Assembly: GCF_030389965.1 (NCBI RefSeq)
Contig: NZ_CP128399.1
Coordinates: 1,974,934 to 2,038,933, forward strand
Length of the DNA: 64,000 nucleotides
Direction of reading: 5' to 3'
Source: Candidatus Chlorohelix allophototropha
GTDB lineage: Bacteria > Chloroflexota > Chloroflexia > Chloroheliales > Chloroheliaceae
Part shown: one piece after another, positions 37,092 through 46,330 of the stretch
How the letters are laid out: the number at the start of each line of letters is the position of its first letter
How positions within the stretch are numbered: position 1 is the first letter of the stretch
Made by a program: the position numbers and the translations under genes
Notes under the pieces: model-generated
The model's input: only the letters and a program-made list of their open reading frames with translations
The model's database searches: none
What the model was told of the DNA's origin: nothing

Positions 37092-37931
37092 TTAACCGAA
37101 GTAAACCCTACTTGGAGTCTGGTAATCCAGCGACTGATGCGGTCGGCGATTATTATAGAAATCGAAATATTCGCCTAACCCAACAGTAGCTTCAGCGGTA
37201 TTTGCGTAATCGGCTAAATAAACATTTTCCCACTTTGCTGAACGCCAAAGCCTTTCGGTGAAAATATTATCTAAGGCCCGACCTTTACCGTCCATGCTGA
37301 CCTTGCTGCCGGCTGCTTCTACCAACCGGGTGTAGTGCGGGCTGGTAAAGTGACTGCCCTGATCGCTATTAAAAATCACAGGTTGAGCTCTATTCAAAGC
37401 TCGCTCAACCGCCCGTGTCACAAAAGGTTGTTCTAAAGTTTCGCTTACTTCCCAACTTACAACATAGCGGCTGTACCAATCAATGATCGCAACCAGGTAG
37501 GCCCAACTCTTACGCAACGGCAAATAGGTTATGTCAATGCCCCAAACGTGATTGGCATAGCTGGCTTCAATGTTGCGTAACAGGTACGGATAAACCTTAT
37601 GCTCGTGATTACGCTTCGATAAATTTGGTCCGGGAGCAATGGCTTCCAGGCCCATTTCTCGCATATAACGCTGGACTGTCCGGCGATTAACCGCAAAGCC
37701 AGTCTGGCCGAGCTGACAGGTAATGCGCCGTGAACCGTAAAAAGGATAGTCGGTATAGATCAGGTCAATACGTCGCTTGAGCTCGATTTCAAAATCGCCA
37801 GGTTCAGTTTTCTGGTAATAAAGGCTCGACCGTGCCACTTGTAGCAAGTGGGCCTGAGTGGAAAGGGCCAATTCACTTTCTTCCCGTTCGACCAGGCTCA
37901 GACGGTTCGGTCGAGATACCGACACTTTCAA
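37092..37931 (-). CDS. IS3-family transposase OrfB (rve integrase core)
   Basis: 279 residues. The HTH_21-like N-terminal part (YPFYGSRRITCQLGQTG) is followed by a DDE core: VWGIDITYLPLR (Asp), VIFNSDQGSHFTS (Asp) and the Glu in DNIFTERLWRSAKWENV, with the terminal YNNRRPHQSLDYQTP block. The DDE triad is complete. It begins at a TTG inside orfA and is normally made as an OrfAB fusion by frameshifting at the A9 tract 37933-37941. Here the two frames are offset by +1 (equivalently -2), not the usual -1, so fusion would need slippage or the element may be damaged. Confidence 0.9.
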   Translation of the reverse strand: MKVSVSRPNRLSLVEREESELALSTQAHLLQVARSSLYYQKTEPGDFEIELKRRIDLIYTDYPFYGSRRITCQLGQTGFAVNRRTVQRYMREMGLEAIAPGPNLSKRNHEHKVYPYLLRNIEASYANHVWGIDITYLPLRKSWAYLVAIIDWYSRYVVSWEVSETLEQPFVTRAVERALNRAQPVIFNSDQGSHFTSPHYTRLVEAAGSKVSMDGKGRALDNIFTERLWRSAKWENVYLADYANTAEATVGLGEYFDFYNNRRPHQSLDYQTPSRVYFG

Positions 37932-38223
37932 CTTTTTTTTTCAGCCAGTTAAGCTGGATAGTTAGCTTACCGATTTCAGCGTAAAGTTTTTCTTTTTCTT
38001 TGTCGTGTTGCTCATTGATGGCTGCCAGATGCTTCTGAAACTGGGCTTCATCTGCAAAATTAGCAGGCATCGCCGTTAATGCTGCTTCGCGCCAGCGTCT
38101 CAACTGGGTGGGATGAACCCCATGTTTCGAAGCAATCTGGGTTAGAGTTTGCTCCTCTTTGAGGAGTTCCTGGACAATTTGAGCCTTAAAAGTCGGCGAG
38201 TATTTCTTTCTGGGTGTAGTCAT
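37873..38223 (-). CDS. IS3-family transposase OrfA (helix-turn-helix)
   Basis: 116 residues. A transposase_8-type helix-turn-helix lies in the first 55 residues (YSPTFKAQIVQELLKE, HGVHPTQLRRWREAA), and a leucine-zipper-like helix (about 70-105) runs up to the A9 tract. It binds the element ends. It overlaps orfB by 59 bases. A truncated second copy of the same OrfA type lies at 38509-38724, showing that relatives of this element have inserted here before. Confidence 0.9.
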   Translation of the reverse strand: MTTPRKKYSPTFKAQIVQELLKEEQTLTQIASKHGVHPTQLRRWREAALTAMPANFADEAQFQKHLAAINEQHDKEKEKLYAEIGKLTIQLNWLKKKVESVGISTEPSEPGRTGRK

Positions 38224-38508: not shown

Positions 38509-38724
38509 CTAAATTTTACTGAGATCCTGATCCTTCTTAATTACTAATCTAATACCAAAATGCTTGGGCATCGCTTTAAGAGCCGCATCCCTCCAACGGC
38601 GTAGTTGGGTAGGATGAACGCCATTTTTTGAAGCAATTTGTGTCATAGTTTGCCCCTCTTTAAGGAGCTCTTGCACGATCTGGGCTTTAAAAGCCGGTGA
38701 ATATGCTTTTCGAGTAGTTGTCAT
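38509..38724 (-). pseudogene. Truncated IS3-family OrfA
   Basis: From ATG 38724 the first 55 residues match the neighbouring OrfA at about 80 percent (YSPAFKAQIVQELLKEGQT, GVHPTQLRRWRDAALKAMP). The frame then departs (KHFGIRLVIKKDQDLSKI) and stops, with no orfB after it. It is a decayed IS3 remnant of the same subgroup. Confidence 0.75.
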
Positions 38725-39190
38725 AGTTATCAAGATTTCCACCGTTCTTCTAGACTTTGGGTTAAGTAATATTGGTCTATTCCATGTACGATTCACGGTT
38801 TCGTTACTTTTAGCACTAGAGTTGCGGCTGAACCGAAGAACTGAACAACGAAAAAGGGTTTGGTAAGGCCTTAACTTTATCCCATCCAAAAATTTGTTAA
38901 AAGCCATCTTGCTTCCTTTCGCTATTTTGGTTTATTTGGTCACTACCTTTAGCGAATCGAAGCTTTTGCTTGTTTTGTTATTCTCTGAAACGCCCTGTCC
39001 TGTTTATCCATCGATACGCATCTTCCCGTTTTAAAAGTGATATAATTCTAAGTAAGCTTGTAAAAGCTCAGAACTTTCGTCTGGAACAATAATGATTCTA
39101 GAATAGATACAAAGAGCTTATGTCTCTTGCCTAAAGCGAAAGTACAAAAGCTATTAAATAGATAACATATATAGAGGAGAATATATAATT

Positions 39191-40279
39191 GTGATGCCTA
39201 TTATAAATGACGAAATTGTGCTGAAAGCCCTTAGTACTGTGCAAGAGCCTGAATTGGGTGGTGATTTGGTGAGCCGTAAGATGATACGTAACCTAAAAAT
39301 CGAGGGAAGCAATATCACCTTTACCATTATGCTTACTACTCCCGCTTGCCCTCTAAAGGATGTTATGGAAAAACAAAGCACGGCTGCTATTCGGAGCATG
39401 GTTCCCGACGCAGGTGCAATAAAGATAAACTTTGACTCCGATGTACGAATGAATCGCCAGAATCCCAATGGCCAACAGGAACAGTTGTTGCCTATGGTTA
39501 AGAATATTATCGCAATATCAAGCGGTAAGGGTGGAGTTGGCAAGTCTACCGTGAGCGTAAACCTTGCGGTGGCGTTAGCTCAGGATGGAGCTAGAGTCGG
39601 CTTGCTTGATGCAGATGTTTATGGTCCAAATATTCCCATGATGATGGGCAGTAGCGAAAAGCCAAAGCAAGTTTCGGCTGATAAAATCGGCGCATTGGAA
39701 GCGCATGGCGTAAAAATGATGTCAATCGGGTTTCTTGTACCACCGGGCAGCAGTATGACTTGGCGCGGGCCGATGGTTCATGGTGCTTTGCAGCAATTAA
39801 TGCGTGAGGTAGAATGGGGTACGCTTGATTATTTTATCGTGGATATGCCTCCCGGAACTGGCGATGCCCAATTGACCATGACCCAATCGGTGCAGTTGAG
39901 TGGTGCGGTAATTGTCAGCACTCCTCAAGATGTAGCATTGGGTGATGCAGTGCGTGGAATTGCGATGTTCCAGCAAATGCGCGTGCCCATTTTAGGTATT
40001 GTTGAAAATATGAGTTATTTCAACTGCCCTCATTGCGGTATGCGTACCGAGATTTTTGATCACGGCAAGGCTGAAATAGAGGCGAAAAAACGCAACATCC
40101 CATTTTTGGGTAATATCCCGATTGATACCAATATTCGAATCGGTGGTGATAATGGCGTTCCGATAGTAGTTTCTGAACCTGATTCAGCAGTAGCACAAGC
40201 TTTCAAGCACGCAGCTCGGCAAATGGCAGCCCGTATCTCGGTACTGGCAACTCGCACCCTGCCTGTTATCAAAGGTTAA
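39191..40279 (+). CDS. mrp: Mrp/NBP35-type iron-sulfur carrier ATPase
   Basis: 362 residues. The N-terminal MIP18/DUF59 domain (about 5-90, LSTVQEPELGGDLVS) is followed by the deviant Walker A SSGKGGVGKSTVSVNLA (about 114-130) and the DADVYGPNIPMMMG switch. The Fe-S-binding C-x2-C appears as YFNCPHCGM. It binds and transfers [4Fe-4S] clusters to target apoproteins in the cytosol. Start GTG 39191 is favoured because AGGAGA lies about 11 bases upstream; ATG 39194 is also possible. It is a single gene on the right edge of the IS region. Confidence 0.95.
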   Translation: MMPIINDEIVLKALSTVQEPELGGDLVSRKMIRNLKIEGSNITFTIMLTTPACPLKDVMEKQSTAAIRSMVPDAGAIKINFDSDVRMNRQNPNGQQEQLLPMVKNIIAISSGKGGVGKSTVSVNLAVALAQDGARVGLLDADVYGPNIPMMMGSSEKPKQVSADKIGALEAHGVKMMSIGFLVPPGSSMTWRGPMVHGALQQLMREVEWGTLDYFIVDMPPGTGDAQLTMTQSVQLSGAVIVSTPQDVALGDAVRGIAMFQQMRVPILGIVENMSYFNCPHCGMRTEIFDHGKAEIEAKKRNIPFLGNIPIDTNIRIGGDNGVPIVVSEPDSAVAQAFKHAARQMAARISVLATRTLPVIKG

Positions 40280-40564: not shown

Positions 40565-41326
40565 ATGAATATCAAGCGATTTAAAGCGGCTGGCTTGAAT
40601 TGTATTGAAGTATCGCCCTTATTTGCGCGAGAAGATTTGCCTATTGTGGTGATTTTGCATGGATGGGGCGAGTGGGGCGAAAATTATTCTCTGTATGCCC
40701 CCTTAATTAATAGCTTAGAATATCGCTTTATATTTCCGAACGCTCCGTTTAAAGTTCCCGGTGCATTATTTAGCTGGTTCAAACTTAAATACGAGGGGTT
40801 TTTTCTCTCAAATCTGGCTCCCCAAGTTGCTACCGCCCGTTCTTATATCACTTCCTTGCTGGATGAACTCAAAGCACGTTATAACTTACCGGCGAATCGT
40901 ATGGCTCTTGGTGGCTTTAGCGTCGGTGCGATGACTGCGTTGGATACCGGTATTAGTTATCAAGATAAATTGGCAGGGCTTTTTTCTCTCAGCGGTTTTA
41001 TGGTAGCCGATACCCCATTTGAATCATCCAATATGTTGAATCTGGACAATTATTACGCGAATGACCGGGGCACATTAGAAAAGGATCTTCGGAATTTTGC
41101 AATTAGCAACACGCCGGTGTTGATTGCGCATGGCATTTATGATTTTATGATACCCTCGCAAGCCGGACGTGCTGTATATAAACAGCTAAAAGCTGCTGGT
41201 GTTCCGACCCAACTTTATGAATTCATCGGAAGCCACCAGTTTACCATTGATGAATTTGTAACTCTGAATTATTTTTTGAAAAATGCTTTTAAAACTGCCC
41301 TACTACAGGAAGCACCGATAAAATAA
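40565..41326 (+). CDS. Alpha/beta-hydrolase (phospholipase/carboxylesterase family)
   Basis: 253 residues. The fold opens with VVILHGWGEWGENY (oxyanion H-G). The nucleophile Ser is in ALGGFSVGAM (about 117-126), the acid Asp in AHGIYDFMIP, and the His in IGSHQFTIDE. These match the PF02230 carboxylesterase/phospholipase group. No signal peptide is seen, so it is cytosolic. A TATAAT-type -10 element lies about 40 bases before the ATG. It is flanked by gene-free stretches of 285 and 760 bases. The natural ester is unknown. Confidence 0.87.
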   Translation: MNIKRFKAAGLNCIEVSPLFAREDLPIVVILHGWGEWGENYSLYAPLINSLEYRFIFPNAPFKVPGALFSWFKLKYEGFFLSNLAPQVATARSYITSLLDELKARYNLPANRMALGGFSVGAMTALDTGISYQDKLAGLFSLSGFMVADTPFESSNMLNLDNYYANDRGTLEKDLRNFAISNTPVLIAHGIYDFMIPSQAGRAVYKQLKAAGVPTQLYEFIGSHQFTIDEFVTLNYFLKNAFKTALLQEAPIK

Positions 41327-42089
41327 AGGAGAGAATTCCAAATTATGATTTTACATAACTATTGATTACACACAAAATAAGGAGCAGAAAAGTTGATGCG
41401 CCTGTGCTACAACATCCTCGCCTTTTGCCGTATTCTTCTCTAACGCTTGTTTTACGTGCGTTCGCCAGCGGCAAAGATAAAGCCGTGTTGGTGCTCTCTG
41501 ATACGCTCTCTAATTCTGCTAGGATAGCCTTCAGTTGTTCGAATCCTGCTAACCTCTCCCCATTACCAACCCTCTATGGTTGTATCTGACTACAAGCATT
41601 GCGAGTCTTTTATATTTTATTACCAGAGCAAATCAATAATTTACTTTCATTCTAGAAACGTGGGAAAGAAAACAGTTAGGTAGTTTGAACAAATTTGGTC
41701 GCAAAACCCAAGAGCCAGATAGTGATCAAGAATCAAAGTTATTTATAGTATGAATAGATGCCGATAGAAAGTTTCGGCGCTTTATCATTCAGTTGTAGAT
41801 TTCACTTTTTTTGCTTTCACCTACCACCTACATTTTTCTAAAAGATGGGTCAAAATAGCCTATAAGTTTAAGTTATACCCATTTTAGTTTTCAAACCACT
41901 TGACATTTTATAGGCAGACTCTTAGAATTATTTCAACTAAGCCAGCAGATGTTTCCAATTATATAATCAGTTGTTTCTGAATAAACTAGTTTGCAAAACT
42001 TACTGGCGTTTTAATTCTTGTGCAACTTTACCTCCTTCAACCTACTCGCACAATCTGCTTTTTAGACCTATTACTCGAAAGCTAAAAAT
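41327..42089. other. Gene-poor stretch with a possible decayed coding fragment
   Basis: About 760 AT-rich bases without a supported gene. On the minus strand 41380-41560 reads openly as a helical stretch (LKAILAELESVSEST, then SLPLANARKTSV) but lacks a start, an end and any recognised family, so it may be the remains of a gene. The right part (41800-42089) should contain the promoter of the lipid-system operon. No good consensus pair was found. Confidence 0.35.
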
Positions 42090-42914
42090 ATGTTCCCGGT
42101 GTTATGGCAGAGCGATGGTCTGGTACTTTATACGCACGATTTTTTTACAGTATTGGGTTTGGTAGTAGGTCTGGGAGTTTACTACTATGAACTCCGCCGT
42201 AGAGCGATGCTTTCCTACAAAATCTTTTGGATTTCGCTTATAGCGATATTGGGTGGTGGGCTTGGTTGTCGACTTATTACAGCCTGGGAACATCTTTCTT
42301 ACTATACTAATCAGGGAGGCGTGCCATTTACATGGCTGGTAGCACATAGCGGGAAAAGCATTATAGGCGGGATTGCAGGAGGCTATCTGGCTATCAAGAT
42401 AAGCAAAAAGGCGTTTAACTACAGGATTTCTACCGGGGATTGTTACGCCCCCGCTATCCCTTTGGCAATGGCAATCGGTCGAATAGGCTGTTTTCTAGCA
42501 GAATTACCGCTTGGAAAACCTACCGAGCTTCCATGGGGTATTGCTGCTACCGCTGATTCAGCCTCGCATTTTGTCAGTTGTCCCTACTGCCTACAGAATA
42601 TGCATCCTAGTATGATCTATGAAATTATCTTTCACCTCATAGCTTTTGTCGTGATTTTAAGATTCCGACACCTCGTCATAGTACAGGGTGACACCTTAAA
42701 ACTTTATCTGCTGGCGGCAGCGCTTTTTCGCTTCCTAGTTGAATTTGTACGTGCCAATCCTGAGCAGTTCTGGGGACTTACCGGACCGCAGATTGTATTA
42801 ATTCCGCTTACCGGACTACTACTTTGGTATTTTATCAGGCAATTGAGAAAAGGGGTTTACCGGATGCCCCCTGCCCCGCCTTATGAACTTACTATTGAAG
42901 AAAAGGTTGGTTGA
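42090..42914 (+). CDS. Lgt-like membrane protein (prolipoprotein diacylglyceryl transferase family, divergent)
   Basis: 274 residues with about seven membrane helices, the Lgt layout (PF01790). The conserved Arg/Gly loop is IGRIGCFLAELPLG (Lgt: GRLGNFINGE) and the C-terminal signature is MHPSMIYEI (Lgt: HPSQLYE). Instead of the Lgt W-x-G-G-L-S-F-H-G-G loop it has HSGKSIIGGIAGG, and a C-P-Y-C pair precedes the HPS box. Canonical Lgt moves diacylglyceryl from phosphatidylglycerol to a lipobox Cys. This variant may use another acceptor. It is the first gene of a six-gene run: 2 bases separate it from the next ORF, and a Tes-like radical SAM enzyme follows. Confidence 0.78.
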   Translation: MFPVLWQSDGLVLYTHDFFTVLGLVVGLGVYYYELRRRAMLSYKIFWISLIAILGGGLGCRLITAWEHLSYYTNQGGVPFTWLVAHSGKSIIGGIAGGYLAIKISKKAFNYRISTGDCYAPAIPLAMAIGRIGCFLAELPLGKPTELPWGIAATADSASHFVSCPYCLQNMHPSMIYEIIFHLIAFVVILRFRHLVIVQGDTLKLYLLAAALFRFLVEFVRANPEQFWGLTGPQIVLIPLTGLLLWYFIRQLRKGVYRMPPAPPYELTIEEKVG

Positions 42915-42916
42915 GG

Positions 42917-43390
42917 ATGAGCGAATATTACCAGATAAAAGGCTATATTAGGCACAATCGGAATACCTATACTCGTGAGGCAATTACAGAGGAACTTTTG
43001 AAACGAGGGTATTCACAAAGTGACATTGATGATGCCTGGAAATCCCTGTTGGAAGAGGAACATATTTTAGAAAATGCCAGTAAGGAGTCCGTAACTGAAT
43101 CGGGTAAATTCTGGTGGGCATTTGCAGCTTATTTTTTTATTCTTCCTGTAATAATCGGTATTCTAGCCAGAATAGTCAGAGAAAAATCTTATTACATTAT
43201 GTCTAACAATTCTTTTAATGTGTTTCTTATTGGTGGGGTTATTACAATTCTATCGGGCATTATTCTCAGTTTAATTTTTTGGGATAGCGATAAGCCTCTG
43301 TCGAGAGGCGTTTTTTACGGTTGCCTGTTTACTACTGTAACTCCAGTTATATCCCTTGGAGTAATCATAGGTATCTGTAGCGCTGGTTGA
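42917..43390 (+). CDS. Membrane protein paralogue 1 (T-Y-T-R-E-A-I domain plus three helices)
   Basis: 157 residues from ATG 42917; the TTG 42911 overlaps the Lgt-like stop. The N-terminal 45 residues form a small helical domain (TYTREAITEELLKRGYSQSD, then IDDAWK) resembling a UBA/winged-helix-like adaptor. Three hydrophobic helices follow at about 65-83, 100-118 and 134-154, with the conserved FWDSDKPLSRGVFYGC loop before the last. It is closely related to the genes at 43427 and 43991, so the trio arose by tandem duplication. I recognise no named family. Position between an Lgt-like protein and a radical SAM enzyme suggests an accessory membrane role. Confidence 0.85.
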   Translation: MSEYYQIKGYIRHNRNTYTREAITEELLKRGYSQSDIDDAWKSLLEEEHILENASKESVTESGKFWWAFAAYFFILPVIIGILARIVREKSYYIMSNNSFNVFLIGGVITILSGIILSLIFWDSDKPLSRGVFYGCLFTTVTPVISLGVIIGICSAG

Positions 43391-43426
43391 TAAAGCCACA
43401 CAGGAAATAAACTGAGATAAAAGAAA

Positions 43427-43918
43427 ATGGCAAGCAAAAGAATCGAAGAAATAATTGAATATATTCGGCAAACCGATGCCACCTATACCAGAGAAGCAAT
43501 TAATCAGGCTCTTAAAGAGCGTGGTTATAGCGCCGAAGAAATTTCAAATGGCTGGAAGGACGCGGAAAAGTTAAAAGAACCGAGAGCAGAACCTAGAATT
43601 AGTTTGGTAAAGGCAAAGAGCTTTTGGCTAGCCCTATTCGGTTTTTTGCTAGGCGTTCCTATCTTTACAGCCCTATTCGCTATACTGGGTGCGCTTTTAT
43701 CAAATAATTCACCCTACAGTATTATGGCACCGCTTCTCGGTGCATTATTTGTTTTGATAGTGCTGATTTGGGTCGTTTCTTATATAACCGGACACTGGAA
43801 GGATAATATGGTTGTTTCCAGAGGACTATTGACAGGCTTGGTGTTAACCATAGTATTGCCATTTATCCCTTTCTTTATAGTGGCGGGTATTTGCACTACT
43901 TATAGCAATTGGAAATAA
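43427..43918 (+). CDS. Membrane protein paralogue 2
   Basis: 163 residues. It has the same design as its neighbours: an N-terminal domain with TYTREAINQALKERGYSAEE, a short basic linker, then three membrane helices (about 64-85, 95-117, 137-158). This middle copy is the most diverged. The loop before the third helix reads KDNMVVSRGLLTG, keeping only S-R-G of paralogue 1, and the Trp-Asp of that loop is lost. It lies 36 bases after paralogue 1. Divergence of one copy in three hints at a hetero-oligomer rather than simple dosage. Confidence 0.83.
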   Translation: MASKRIEEIIEYIRQTDATYTREAINQALKERGYSAEEISNGWKDAEKLKEPRAEPRISLVKAKSFWLALFGFLLGVPIFTALFAILGALLSNNSPYSIMAPLLGALFVLIVLIWVVSYITGHWKDNMVVSRGLLTGLVLTIVLPFIPFFIVAGICTTYSNWK

Positions 43919-43990
43919 TCTTACCAGGATTTGGTATGACTGCCCGTTTCTACTATAACCCGATTGCAATGCTATCAGATAAGGTAAAAG

Positions 43991-44482
43991 ATGAGAGACT
44001 TTTCAGAAGCGAGAAAGTTTATAGAGAAATACCAAGAGATTTATACCCGTGAAGCTATAACCAAGGAGCTTTTGAAACGCGGTTACTCAGAAACAGATAT
44101 TGAGGAAGCCTGGTTATTGGTTACGAAGGAGGAAGAGCAGCTCATGTATTACTCTTCTTCCAACTCTTCCGGAAGTAGTAGTACTTTCGAAAGTATTACT
44201 ACTTCCGGCAAATTCTGGGTAAGTTTTTTAATCTATTTCTTGGTAATACCAGTAATCATTGGTATTATCTCCCGAATACTTGGAGGTTCAAATTACTCCG
44301 AAGCATTTACCGCTTTTTCAATTAGCGCATTTGTTGCAGTAATATCTGGAATTATTCTCAGTATCATTTTTTGGGAAACTGACAAACCTTTAGCGCGAGG
44401 GGTATTTTACGGTTGCTTTTTCTCTACCATAACTCCAGTGATTTCTCTGCTAATTATAATTGGAATTTGTAACGCCGGTTGA
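43991..44482 (+). CDS. Membrane protein paralogue 3
   Basis: 163 residues. The N-terminal TREAITKELLKRGYSETDIE domain is followed by a Ser-rich linker (about 54-70, SSNSSGSSS) and three membrane helices. The FWETDKPLARGVFYGC loop is nearly the same as in paralogue 1, as is the final helix ending IGICNAG. It ends 13 bases before the radical SAM start. Because copies 1 and 3 resemble each other more than copy 2, the middle gene has either been under different selection or is older. The function is unknown. Confidence 0.84.
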   Translation: MRDFSEARKFIEKYQEIYTREAITKELLKRGYSETDIEEAWLLVTKEEEQLMYYSSSNSSGSSSTFESITTSGKFWVSFLIYFLVIPVIIGIISRILGGSNYSEAFTAFSISAFVAVISGIILSIIFWETDKPLARGVFYGCFFSTITPVISLLIIIGICNAG

Positions 44483-44495
44483 AGGAAATAATAGG

Positions 44496-46055
44496 ATGGA
44501 TTTACGACCTTTTACGCCACTACAAATGGTACTCACGGTATGTGGTAAATGCTTCTCTGAGGATCCGGGTCGCAAGATAGAATATGAAAGGGATGTGCTA
44601 CAAGGTAATCTCATCTTGATGGATGGTAAAGTCTATCTGCGCCGTCATTGCCGCCGTGGTCATGGTGAGGTAATCAGTTTGTATGAGGAAGATTACGGAC
44701 TCTGGGAATATTTGCAGCAGTGGCGGGTACCGACAAAATACCATATCTCCGATACTGTGGGTAATAACCTGCCTATACCGATGGGTTACTTGAATGGTCT
44801 AGGTGAGTTGCAGACTCAGCATAGTTGTATTTTTTTGCTAGATATAACTGAGAACTGTAACCTGAAATGCCCAACCTGTTTTGCCGACAGTGGTCCTTCA
44901 ATAAACCGTTTTGTACGGCTCGACCATATTATGCGTTCTCTTGACGCTGTGATAGAGCGCGAGGGGGGCAGAATCGATGTGCTGATGCTGAGTGGCGGTG
45001 AGCCCACTGTCCATCCTGATATCATCGAGATTATCAAGGAAGCCACTCGCCGTAATGTGACCAGAGTTTTGCTTAACACTAACGGGATACGAATTGCCCG
45101 TGAGGATAAATTGCTTTCTGCCTTGGCAAAACTGCGAAACCGGGTGGAAGTGTATCTGCAATTTGATGGGTTTTCGCTAGAATCCCATCTGTACCACCGG
45201 GGTGAGGATCTGCGGGAAGTCAAGAAGGAAGCGGTTCGACGTTTGGCGGAAGCCCGTATTTTCACAACTTTAGTAATGGCGGTTGCACAGGGAGTAAACG
45301 ATCATGAGGTTGGTCAAGTAGCAGAATTCGCTTTCCAGACCGATTATATCGGCGGGGTTTCCTTCCAACCGATATTTGGGTCTGGTCGTGCCAATACTAT
45401 AGACCCAATGAAAAGAGTTACTACTACTGGAGTATTGCGACTTCTGGAACAGCAAACTGGCGGAAGCTTGGTACCACAAGATTTTATTGCATTACCGTGT
45501 AGCCACCCTGATTGTTGTACCCTCACCTATTTTATTAAGGGAGATGAAGGTCAGCTAACTTCGATACCGAGCCTGTTGGGACACGATAGGCTAAAAGCTA
45601 ACCTGAGTCTGGTTTCAAATCGGGTTGCTTATCCCGATGCCAATCCGGCTATTCAGGCTGCCCTCACGGGAATGATGAGCGAAACCACCACTATAACCCG
45701 CCCGGAATTAGTAGATTATGTGCTGAATATCTGCGAAAATTGCGAATTGGGTCTGAGCAGTTTTGTAAAAAGTGTGACTAACCTATTGCTCAAACGCGAA
45801 GACCCGGTTGAAACAATCGCTAAAAGGATGAAACGAATTACTATTAAATCTTTTATGGATGGTTGGACTATGAATGTTGAAAGGTTGCAGCAATGCTGTG
45901 TGCATGTGGGAACTACGGAGGGCGACTCTAACCCTATCCGTATCCCTTTTTGCGCCCGGCAGCTTTTCCAAGAAGCGCGAGACAAAACTCTAACCGGAAG
46001 AGTTAGGGCTGATGAACTAATTCAGGTAAAACGTAACAAGGAGGTAAGAATATGA
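44496..46055 (+). CDS. Radical SAM enzyme, tetraether-synthase (Tes/MJ0619)-like
   Basis: 519 residues from ATG 44496, behind an AAGGA site. An N-terminal metal-binding domain has C-x2-C (VCGKCF) and later RRHCRRGHGE. The radical SAM core has CNLKCPTC (the CX3CX2C cluster ligands) followed by MLSGGEPTVHPD and LNTNGIRIA. A C-terminal part has more Cys groups: CSHPDCCTLTYF, CENCELG and QQCC. This order (rubredoxin-like start, SGGEPTVHPD, YLQFDG, GVNDHEVG, HPDC) matches the archaeal Tes family, which joins two lipid alkyl chains by C-C bonds. Bacterial homologues are suspected in membrane-spanning lipid synthesis. It shares an operon with an Lgt-like protein. The product chemistry is inferred. 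Confidence 0.85.
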   Translation: MDLRPFTPLQMVLTVCGKCFSEDPGRKIEYERDVLQGNLILMDGKVYLRRHCRRGHGEVISLYEEDYGLWEYLQQWRVPTKYHISDTVGNNLPIPMGYLNGLGELQTQHSCIFLLDITENCNLKCPTCFADSGPSINRFVRLDHIMRSLDAVIEREGGRIDVLMLSGGEPTVHPDIIEIIKEATRRNVTRVLLNTNGIRIAREDKLLSALAKLRNRVEVYLQFDGFSLESHLYHRGEDLREVKKEAVRRLAEARIFTTLVMAVAQGVNDHEVGQVAEFAFQTDYIGGVSFQPIFGSGRANTIDPMKRVTTTGVLRLLEQQTGGSLVPQDFIALPCSHPDCCTLTYFIKGDEGQLTSIPSLLGHDRLKANLSLVSNRVAYPDANPAIQAALTGMMSETTTITRPELVDYVLNICENCELGLSSFVKSVTNLLLKREDPVETIAKRMKRITIKSFMDGWTMNVERLQQCCVHVGTTEGDSNPIRIPFCARQLFQEARDKTLTGRVRADELIQVKRNKEVRI

Positions 46056-46330
46056 GTTATCCGGGGGTAGAAACGCTGAGTCGAACTCAGAAATATGATC
46101 GCTTAGCCTTTACTTTCTGTAGGATGGGTACCACCGGGTTGATTTGCTGGTTCTTTACCCCACCCATCTTTATTTTGTTGGTCGGTATAATAACTATTCT
46201 ACTCTACATTAAGGCTGTATATGAGGGAGTAAGGCGTAGTCGCTGTTTCCTGCGCAAACCCTTTTTGATCATGGGTTTCTGGAGCTTGGCAGTTATAGCA
46301 GATGCAGGCTGGTTCTTTTTTCTGCGATAG
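46052..46330 (+). CDS. Small membrane protein at the end of the radical SAM operon
   Basis: 92 residues with two or three hydrophobic segments (about 27-52 and 72-90) and a basic stretch between them (GVRRSRCFLRKP). It starts with an ATGA overlap on the radical SAM stop and has an AAGGAGG ribosome site, so it is clearly translated with it. It has no recognised family. The tight coupling suggests an anchor or subunit for the enzyme. About 270 gene-free bases follow. Confidence 0.83.
   Translation: MSYPGVETLSRTQKYDRLAFTFCRMGTTGLICWFFTPPIFILLVGIITILLYIKAVYEGVRRSRCFLRKPFLIMGFWSLAVIADAGWFFFLR

Follow-up and report, generated by a model that had tools for sequence, protein, structure and literature searches.

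The window analysed here, 64,000 nucleotides of contig NZ_CP128399.1 of Candidatus Chlorohelix allophototropha, carries at positions 42090-46330 an operon in which a variant of the transferase Lgt (referred to as Lgt2) stands together with a radical S-adenosylmethionine (SAM) enzyme that has the predicted fold of the tetraether synthase Tes, three copies of a small membrane protein with a C-terminal Gly-x-Cys (G-x-C) motif, and a further small membrane protein, m6. Tes welds archaeal lipid tails together and Lgt fastens lipids onto proteins. The arrangement of Lgt2 and the radical SAM enzyme is not due to chance, and the cassette is almost certainly a real functional module. Glycerolipid chemistry is its most likely role, because a Tes-fold enzyme is tied, across phyla and at deep divergence, to an Lgt variant whose phospholipid-binding arginines are kept, and it is very probable that the operon acts on a glycerolipid. 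More tentatively, at somewhat less than an even chance, we propose a self-contained membrane glycerolipid-modification module in which Lgt2 would lipidate the cysteine of the G-x-C motif and the radical SAM enzyme would couple or edit acyl tails. Each component is a variant of a known family, and the complete set appears to be undescribed; a literature search, largely without subscription papers, found no description of this gene set or of the pairing.

Relatives of the operon were collected with an alignment of the radical SAM protein, used to scan a set of genomes in which each species was represented once. This yielded 80 loci from Chloroflexota, Actinomycetota (including Mycolicibacterium, Nocardia, Microbacterium, Agromyces and Dactylosporangium), Gemmatimonadota, Blastocatellia and Rhodothermales. 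The original prediction had named the absence of the pairing from relatives as an outcome that would speak against it; a Lgt-like gene was found to adjoin the radical SAM gene, on the same strand and within about 2 kb, in 78 of the 80. The two loci without such a neighbour (L043 and L074) are contig ends. A reading of three other loci (L017, L018 and L025) as Lgt-less was rejected, as the long open reading frames (ORFs) there overlie lgt2 as shadow frames. Evenly sampled Actinomycetota (296 genomes) contained the cassette-type enzyme, defined by a score of 460 bits or more, in six genomes; other Tes-like proteins reached at most 280 bits. A variant Lgt (307-397 bits) was adjacent in all six, whereas none of 29 comparison genomes without the cassette-type enzyme contained an Lgt above 152 bits. 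Exact counting puts the chance of this contrast at about 6 in 10 million. Chloroflexota gave a cassette-type enzyme in 6 of 301 genomes, with Lgt2 beside it in five of these.

The composition of the cassette was determined by clustering the genes of the 80 loci after calling them with a codon-usage gene caller, since clustering of all ORFs was swamped by shadow frames in the GC-rich loci. Just four families were found repeatedly in different lineages, namely the radical SAM enzyme, Lgt2, m6 and the small membrane protein, the last of these falling into several sub-clusters. With rSAM denoting the radical SAM enzyme and small the small membrane protein, the orders seen were Lgt2-small-rSAM-m6, rSAM-m6-Lgt2-small, Lgt2-rSAM-m6-small and small-Lgt2-rSAM-m6. 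The flanking genes vary by lineage and nothing outside the four families is conserved. In 63 of 81 loci a hidden Markov model (HMM) found a member of the m6 family as the next gene after the radical SAM gene. In several mycobacteria (L039, L049-L051, L056 and L057) the cassette sits between oligopeptide-type ABC transporter genes.

In the window the operon consists of six ORFs, all on the + strand, separated by 2, 36, 72 and 13 bases and closed by a 4-base overlap of genes 5 and 6, in exact agreement with the layout first predicted. Gene 5 encodes the radical SAM enzyme (519 amino acids, 44496-46055, + strand; PF04055, 1.6e-22), whose cluster motif C121-x3-C125-x2-C128 (CNLKCPTC, 44856-44879, + strand) is invariant in 22 of 22 relatives. 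By sequence, its best relative of solved structure is GDGT-MAS/Tes (7tol, 1e-42). Comparison with Tes by structure prediction, proposed at the outset, gave an AlphaFold2 model (pTM 0.86; residues 398-434 of low confidence) that Foldseek matched over its whole length to GDGT-MAS (7tom, E 2.6e-37 over 544 columns, TM 0.75/0.78), including the N-terminal rubredoxin and C-terminal lipid-binding domains of Tes. The next-best match, SkfB, covered the radical SAM core only (E 3.5e-10, 230 columns). Identity as a peptide or cofactor radical SAM enzyme was rejected by this search, in which neighbours with peptide substrates matched the core only; the protein is closer to Tes than to any such enzyme of known structure, the reverse of the second outcome that the original prediction had held against itself.

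Compared with Tes/GDGT-MAS (MJ0619, PDB 7TOL/7TOM, NF045702), the radical SAM enzyme has in common the full-length fold, the CX3CX2C motif and cysteines that align with the C-terminal cluster region. Its N-terminal residues C16, C19, C52 and H56 are conserved and form a rubredoxin-like pattern, CX2C...CX3H in the window protein against CX2C...CX2H in the Tes motif. The candidate ligands of a C-terminal auxiliary cluster (C335, C340, C467, C468 and C486) are invariant in the 22 relatives and aligned with those of Mj Tes. It differs in lacking the ligands of the [4Fe4S]N cluster, in having Lys for Met439 and Val for Tyr459, in being bacterial and in being tied to Lgt2. The cysteine layout of Tes that had been predicted is present only in part, in the radical SAM motif and, by alignment, in the C-terminal region; the ligands of one auxiliary cluster are missing. 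By sequence and model the protein is a Tes-fold enzyme and not a Tes, because the fold match is full-length and the ligands are missing with Met439 and Tyr459 replaced; identity as a true Tes was ruled out by the missing cluster ligands. In NCBIfam it reached 196.6 bits with the Tes model NF045702 (cut-off 450). Its best NCBIfam score, 236.6 bits, was obtained with the TrsS radical SAM (seleno)protein model NF045646, well below the cut-off of 490; the methyltransferase found with Lgt-less Tes-like relatives is absent here. In the literature search TrsS appeared only in a table of selenoproteins. A TGA codon flagged in G014 was considered as a selenoprotein signal and rejected, being the terminal stop. 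The cassette enzymes form one clade (support 100/100).

Lgt2 is encoded by gene 1 (274 amino acids, 42090-42914, + strand). The protein, predicted to be of the Lgt family with an altered catalytic loop, indeed matched PF01790 (100.7 bits against a gathering threshold of 24.9; E 1e-28) and remained below every NCBIfam lgt equivalog cut-off (TIGR00544, 62.7 against 118.9 bits; the best-scoring model, 74.5 against 334). Its signature loop reads GRIGCFLAELPLG (42477-42515, + strand), the Escherichia coli counterpart being GRLGNFINGELWG, and the alignments place C134 at the position of N146. Residues H16, R131, C134, E138, G142, H172, R214 and R221 are invariant in 77 of 77 relatives, and of these R131, R214 and G142 correspond to E. 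coli R143, R239 and G154. In E. coli numbering Lgt2 keeps R143, R239, R246, E243, G142, G145 and G154 as well as the HPS..YE motif. It belongs by sequence to the same family as canonical Lgt (PF01790, PDB 5AZB/5AZC) and differs from it in that Y26 is replaced by His and N146 by Cys in 77 of 77 relatives, the H103 position is mostly Leu or Ile, and E151 is lost. In the E. coli enzyme Y26, H103 and N146 are essential; the phospholipid is handled by R143 and R239 (binding of phosphatidylglycerol (PG), gating), Y26 contacts its backbone, and the lipobox is proposed to bind in the region of H103 (PMC4728403, PMC13251419). In true Lgts the H103 position is itself variable, with W, Y or F also occurring (PMC13251419). 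The natural reading of these alignments is that Lgt2 would have kept the donor site, with its acceptor or catalytic site changed.

The Y26H/N146C pair is shared with MSMEG_5408, the second Lgt of Mycolicibacterium smegmatis, which is described only as a Lgt of presumed low activity (PMC13251419) and which likely belongs to the Lgt2 family. It could be supposed that Lgt2 is nothing but a second, ordinary lipoprotein Lgt next to an unrelated enzyme, since Lgt paralogues are common and the host genome (6.09 Mb; nearest named relative found, Candidatus Chloroheliaceae bacterium) has three further Lgt genes elsewhere. These three group with the canonical Lgts in the tree described below. This explanation has hardly any chance of being right: every member of the cassette clade has the canonical residues replaced, the linkage to the radical SAM gene holds across phyla, and the M. 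smegmatis protein with the same pair is the one presumed to be of low activity (PMC13251419). An ordinary lipoprotein Lgt was ruled out on the replacement of active-site residues throughout the clade.

The original prediction took the other four genes to be small membrane proteins, which they are, although genes 2-4 turned out to be paralogues of one family and gene 6 to belong to another. The three G-x-C proteins, each with three transmembrane (TM) helices and all on the + strand, are copy 1 (157 amino acids, 42917-43390, motif IGIC, Cys codon 43376-43378), copy 2 (163 amino acids, 43427-43918, motif AGIC, Cys156 codon 43892-43894) and copy 3 (163 amino acids, 43991-44482, motif IGIC, Cys codon 44468-44470). 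Identity to copy 2 is 29% for copy 1 and 24% for copy 3; sequence comparison makes them one family, so that a reading as three different proteins was rejected. The family is confined to this operon within the host genome. Copy 2 was modelled as an N-terminal three-helix domain followed by the three membrane helices (AlphaFold2 pLDDT 81.5, N-domain above 90), and a fold search with it returned weak matches only, to PEX14 N-domains (PEX14_N) and RecX (E 0.4 or worse). Gene 6 encodes m6 (92 amino acids, 2-3 TM helices, 46052-46330, + strand), with a conserved Cys before TM1 and another in an S-R-C motif after TM2.

Among small proteins of the cassette loci, chosen by position and helix count and blind to cysteines, 62 of 68 carried the C-terminal G-x-C motif. 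The six that do not conform comprise three in which the chain continues beyond the motif at the helix end (L031, L032 and L034), one broken by unknown bases (L028), one with A-Y-C (L037) and one ORF at L069 that is not a family member. The proteins of relatives are 22-36% identical to the window copy; Gly and Cys are nonetheless invariant. The TM2-TM3 loop holds 153 Lys and Arg and the TM1-TM2 loop 24, a skew seen in 59 of 61 proteins (p 1e-16). By this measure the last helix runs from inside to outside and the Cys lies at the outer face, which is the side where Lgt works. The plan of charge, helix and Cys resembles that of a lipoprotein signal peptide shifted to the C-terminus, and differs from it by Gly at -2 and a mostly bulky residue at -1. 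We give about an even chance to the G-x-C cysteine being the acceptor of Lgt2. At two loci (L115:4749-7654 and L116:5147-6016) up to four small-protein genes stand in tandem, and some G-x-C proteins there continue past the Cys into an outer domain of ~150 residues that contains two further Cys; lipoproteins, too, have their outer domain after the Cys.

Radical SAM peptide systems usually include a small dedicated partner, and here one with an invariant Cys stands at nearly every locus; the radical SAM enzyme could accordingly be a maturase acting on the G-x-C protein in the manner of ribosomally synthesized and post-translationally modified peptides, with Lgt2 anchoring the product. This is improbable, as the conserved Cys is outside and the enzyme cytosolic, and as the fold neighbours with peptide substrates match in the core only, as given above for SkfB and GDGT-MAS.

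The association of Tes-like enzymes with Lgt-like genes reaches beyond the cassette. Other Tes-like enzymes of Chloroflexota have an adjacent Lgt-like gene in 9 of 26 tested genomes, and one class of Acidobacteriota Tes-like enzymes (about 380-412 bits) does so, judged from coordinates, in 12 of 13. In a maximum-likelihood tree of 52 sequences, from which the Acidobacteriota proteins were left out, the Lgt-like proteins of the cassette and of the Chloroflexota Tes-like loci form one group (support 100/99) that excludes canonical Lgts and orphan Lgt-like proteins. At the Chloroflexota Tes-like/Lgt loci a Cys lies 8-16 residues before the C-terminus in 10 of 11 small TM proteins. Small membrane proteins with a similar near-C-terminal Cys were present at three Acidobacteriota loci (L147, L148 and L153) and at none of the other Acidobacteriota loci. 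The Tes-like genes at L143-L153, from this phylum associated with branched glycerol dialkyl glycerol tetraethers (brGDGTs), lie directly beside Lgt-like genes. Tes-like genes without a Lgt neighbour often adjoin a methyltransferase gene instead (L118, L120, L121, L138 and L155; also L024 and L137). That methyltransferase carries a conserved CCA.. motif, occurs in Chloroflexota and Acidobacteriota and marks a second, separate context of bacterial Tes homologues, which are often counted as brGDGT candidates.

These observations bear on the possibility that the product is a free membrane-spanning or tail-coupled lipid, the enzyme condensing the tails of two PGs in the manner of Tes/Mss, Lgt2 remodelling or exchanging the head group, and the G-x-C protein and m6 serving as assembly or docking subunits and not as acceptors. 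The full-length Tes fold fits this, as does the presence of Lgt-like genes beside Tes-like genes in Acidobacteriota, the phylum whose Tes homologues have been proposed to make brGDGTs (PMC8941075). Tes and Mss also appear to act on PG-headed lipids, PG being the proposed head group for tail condensation (PMC13274423), and PG is the lipid donor of Lgt (PMC4728403). Mss, likened here by description only, and the bacterial Tes homologues proposed for brGDGTs are likewise radical SAM enzymes, assigned to the coupling of tails of bacterial glycerolipids, and the accessible parts of their descriptions mention no Lgt or acceptor protein (PMC8941075, PMC11868695, PMC13274423). A free lipid leaves unexplained why Gly and Cys are retained amid divergence, invariably where the last helix ends on the outside, and why the small protein occurs in up to four tandem copies. 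We regard it as rather unlikely, and place a protein anchor ahead of it because genes 2-4 carry a lipobox-like Cys at the C-terminus.

In the proposed modification of the G-x-C protein, PG or a tail-modified PG would be the common substrate of both enzymes. The radical SAM enzyme, a cytosolic protein that m6 probably keeps at the membrane, would form a C-C bond at the acyl tails in the inner leaflet, before or after transfer, and Lgt2 would attach the diacylglyceryl group of this lipid to the G-x-C cysteine thiol at the outer face. This would yield a small membrane protein anchored by a coupled and possibly membrane-spanning lipid. That acyl tails are coupled stands just short of an even chance. 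Taken together this would be a new protein modification, in which the C-terminal Cys of a multi-pass membrane protein is lipidated by a dedicated transferase and the tails are welded by a Tes-fold enzyme into a coupled, possibly membrane-spanning anchor; in this complete form it is doubtful. The idea of a lipid-modifying operon, with which the analysis started, has thus gained from the tie between the Tes fold and the Lgt variant; the acceptor Cys of the G-x-C protein had not been foreseen.

Several points weigh against the proposed module. Lgt2 may not carry out thiol transfer at all, because it lacks Y26, H103 and N146, all three of them essential to the E. coli enzyme. The lipobox [LVI][ASTVI][GAS]C is not matched by the G-x-C motif, in which Gly is at -2 in 93% and the residue at -1 is mostly F, I, V, L or T and not G, A or S. 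The order of the steps must be assumed, because the radical chemistry is cytosolic and the Lgt chemistry takes place in the outer leaflet. In the radical SAM enzyme the [4Fe4S]N ligands (Tes C73, C77, C80 and a His) are absent, with no CX3CX2C there in 22 of 22 relatives, whereas this N-terminal auxiliary motif is present in all other bacterial Tes-like proteins compared. Met439 is replaced by K451 and Tyr459 by V471 in all 22, and both are complete in 1000 archaeal homologues. HMM searches did not detect m6 in most mycobacterial cassettes, many genomes in the survey are metagenome-assembled, and one Chloroflexota locus (L160:7627-9210) is a true exception, with a lone enzyme lacking Lgt2, the G-x-C protein and m6 on a 10 kb contig. 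This natural exception might show what the radical SAM enzyme does alone.

The replaced residues lead to the further possibility that the enzyme alters the acyl chain otherwise, by methylation, sulfur insertion, desaturation or cyclisation through its C-terminal cluster, and that Lgt2 loads the altered lipid on the acceptor. The [4Fe4S]C-region cysteines are kept while Lys451 and Val471 stand in every relative, and the GDGT-MAS reaction itself includes an intermediate joined to a cluster by a carbon-sulfur bond (PMC9433317). Gene clustering over the 80 loci, however, found no methyltransferase or sulfur carrier conserved in the cassette, and the M439A variant of GDGT-MAS retains robust activity (PMC9433317), so that the change of Met alone does not exclude coupling. 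We consider such a reaction quite unlikely.

Upstream of the operon, 160 bases before gene 1, lies a promoter-like site (TTGACA-17-TAGAAT, 41900-41928, + strand; 11 of 12 consensus bases), a near-consensus match only, which does not by itself indicate function. Just upstream on the same strand are genes for a NUBPL/Mrp-type Fe-S carrier (39191-40279) and an Abhydrolase_2 phospholipase/carboxylesterase (40565-41326), neither of which is conserved with the cassette in the other loci. Two helix-turn-helix ORFs (37873-38223 and 38509-38907) contain near-identical stretches (AQIVQELLKE...) and resemble insertion-sequence transposase fragments.

The bacterial enzymes behind brGDGTs, the basis of climate proxies, and behind other membrane-spanning lipids are only partly known, and the bacterial Tes homologues have so far been candidates without partners or assays. 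Many of these are now given a constant partner, the variant Lgt. Its adjacency in Acidobacteriota could help to tell which Tes homologues are true membrane-spanning lipid synthases. The cassette studied here adds an apparent acceptor protein, and as it occurs in the cultured genera Mycolicibacterium, Nocardia and Microbacterium it is testable. If the proposal is true, it would give a role to the Y26H/N146C paralogues of Lgt, which until now have been noted only as Lgts of low activity.

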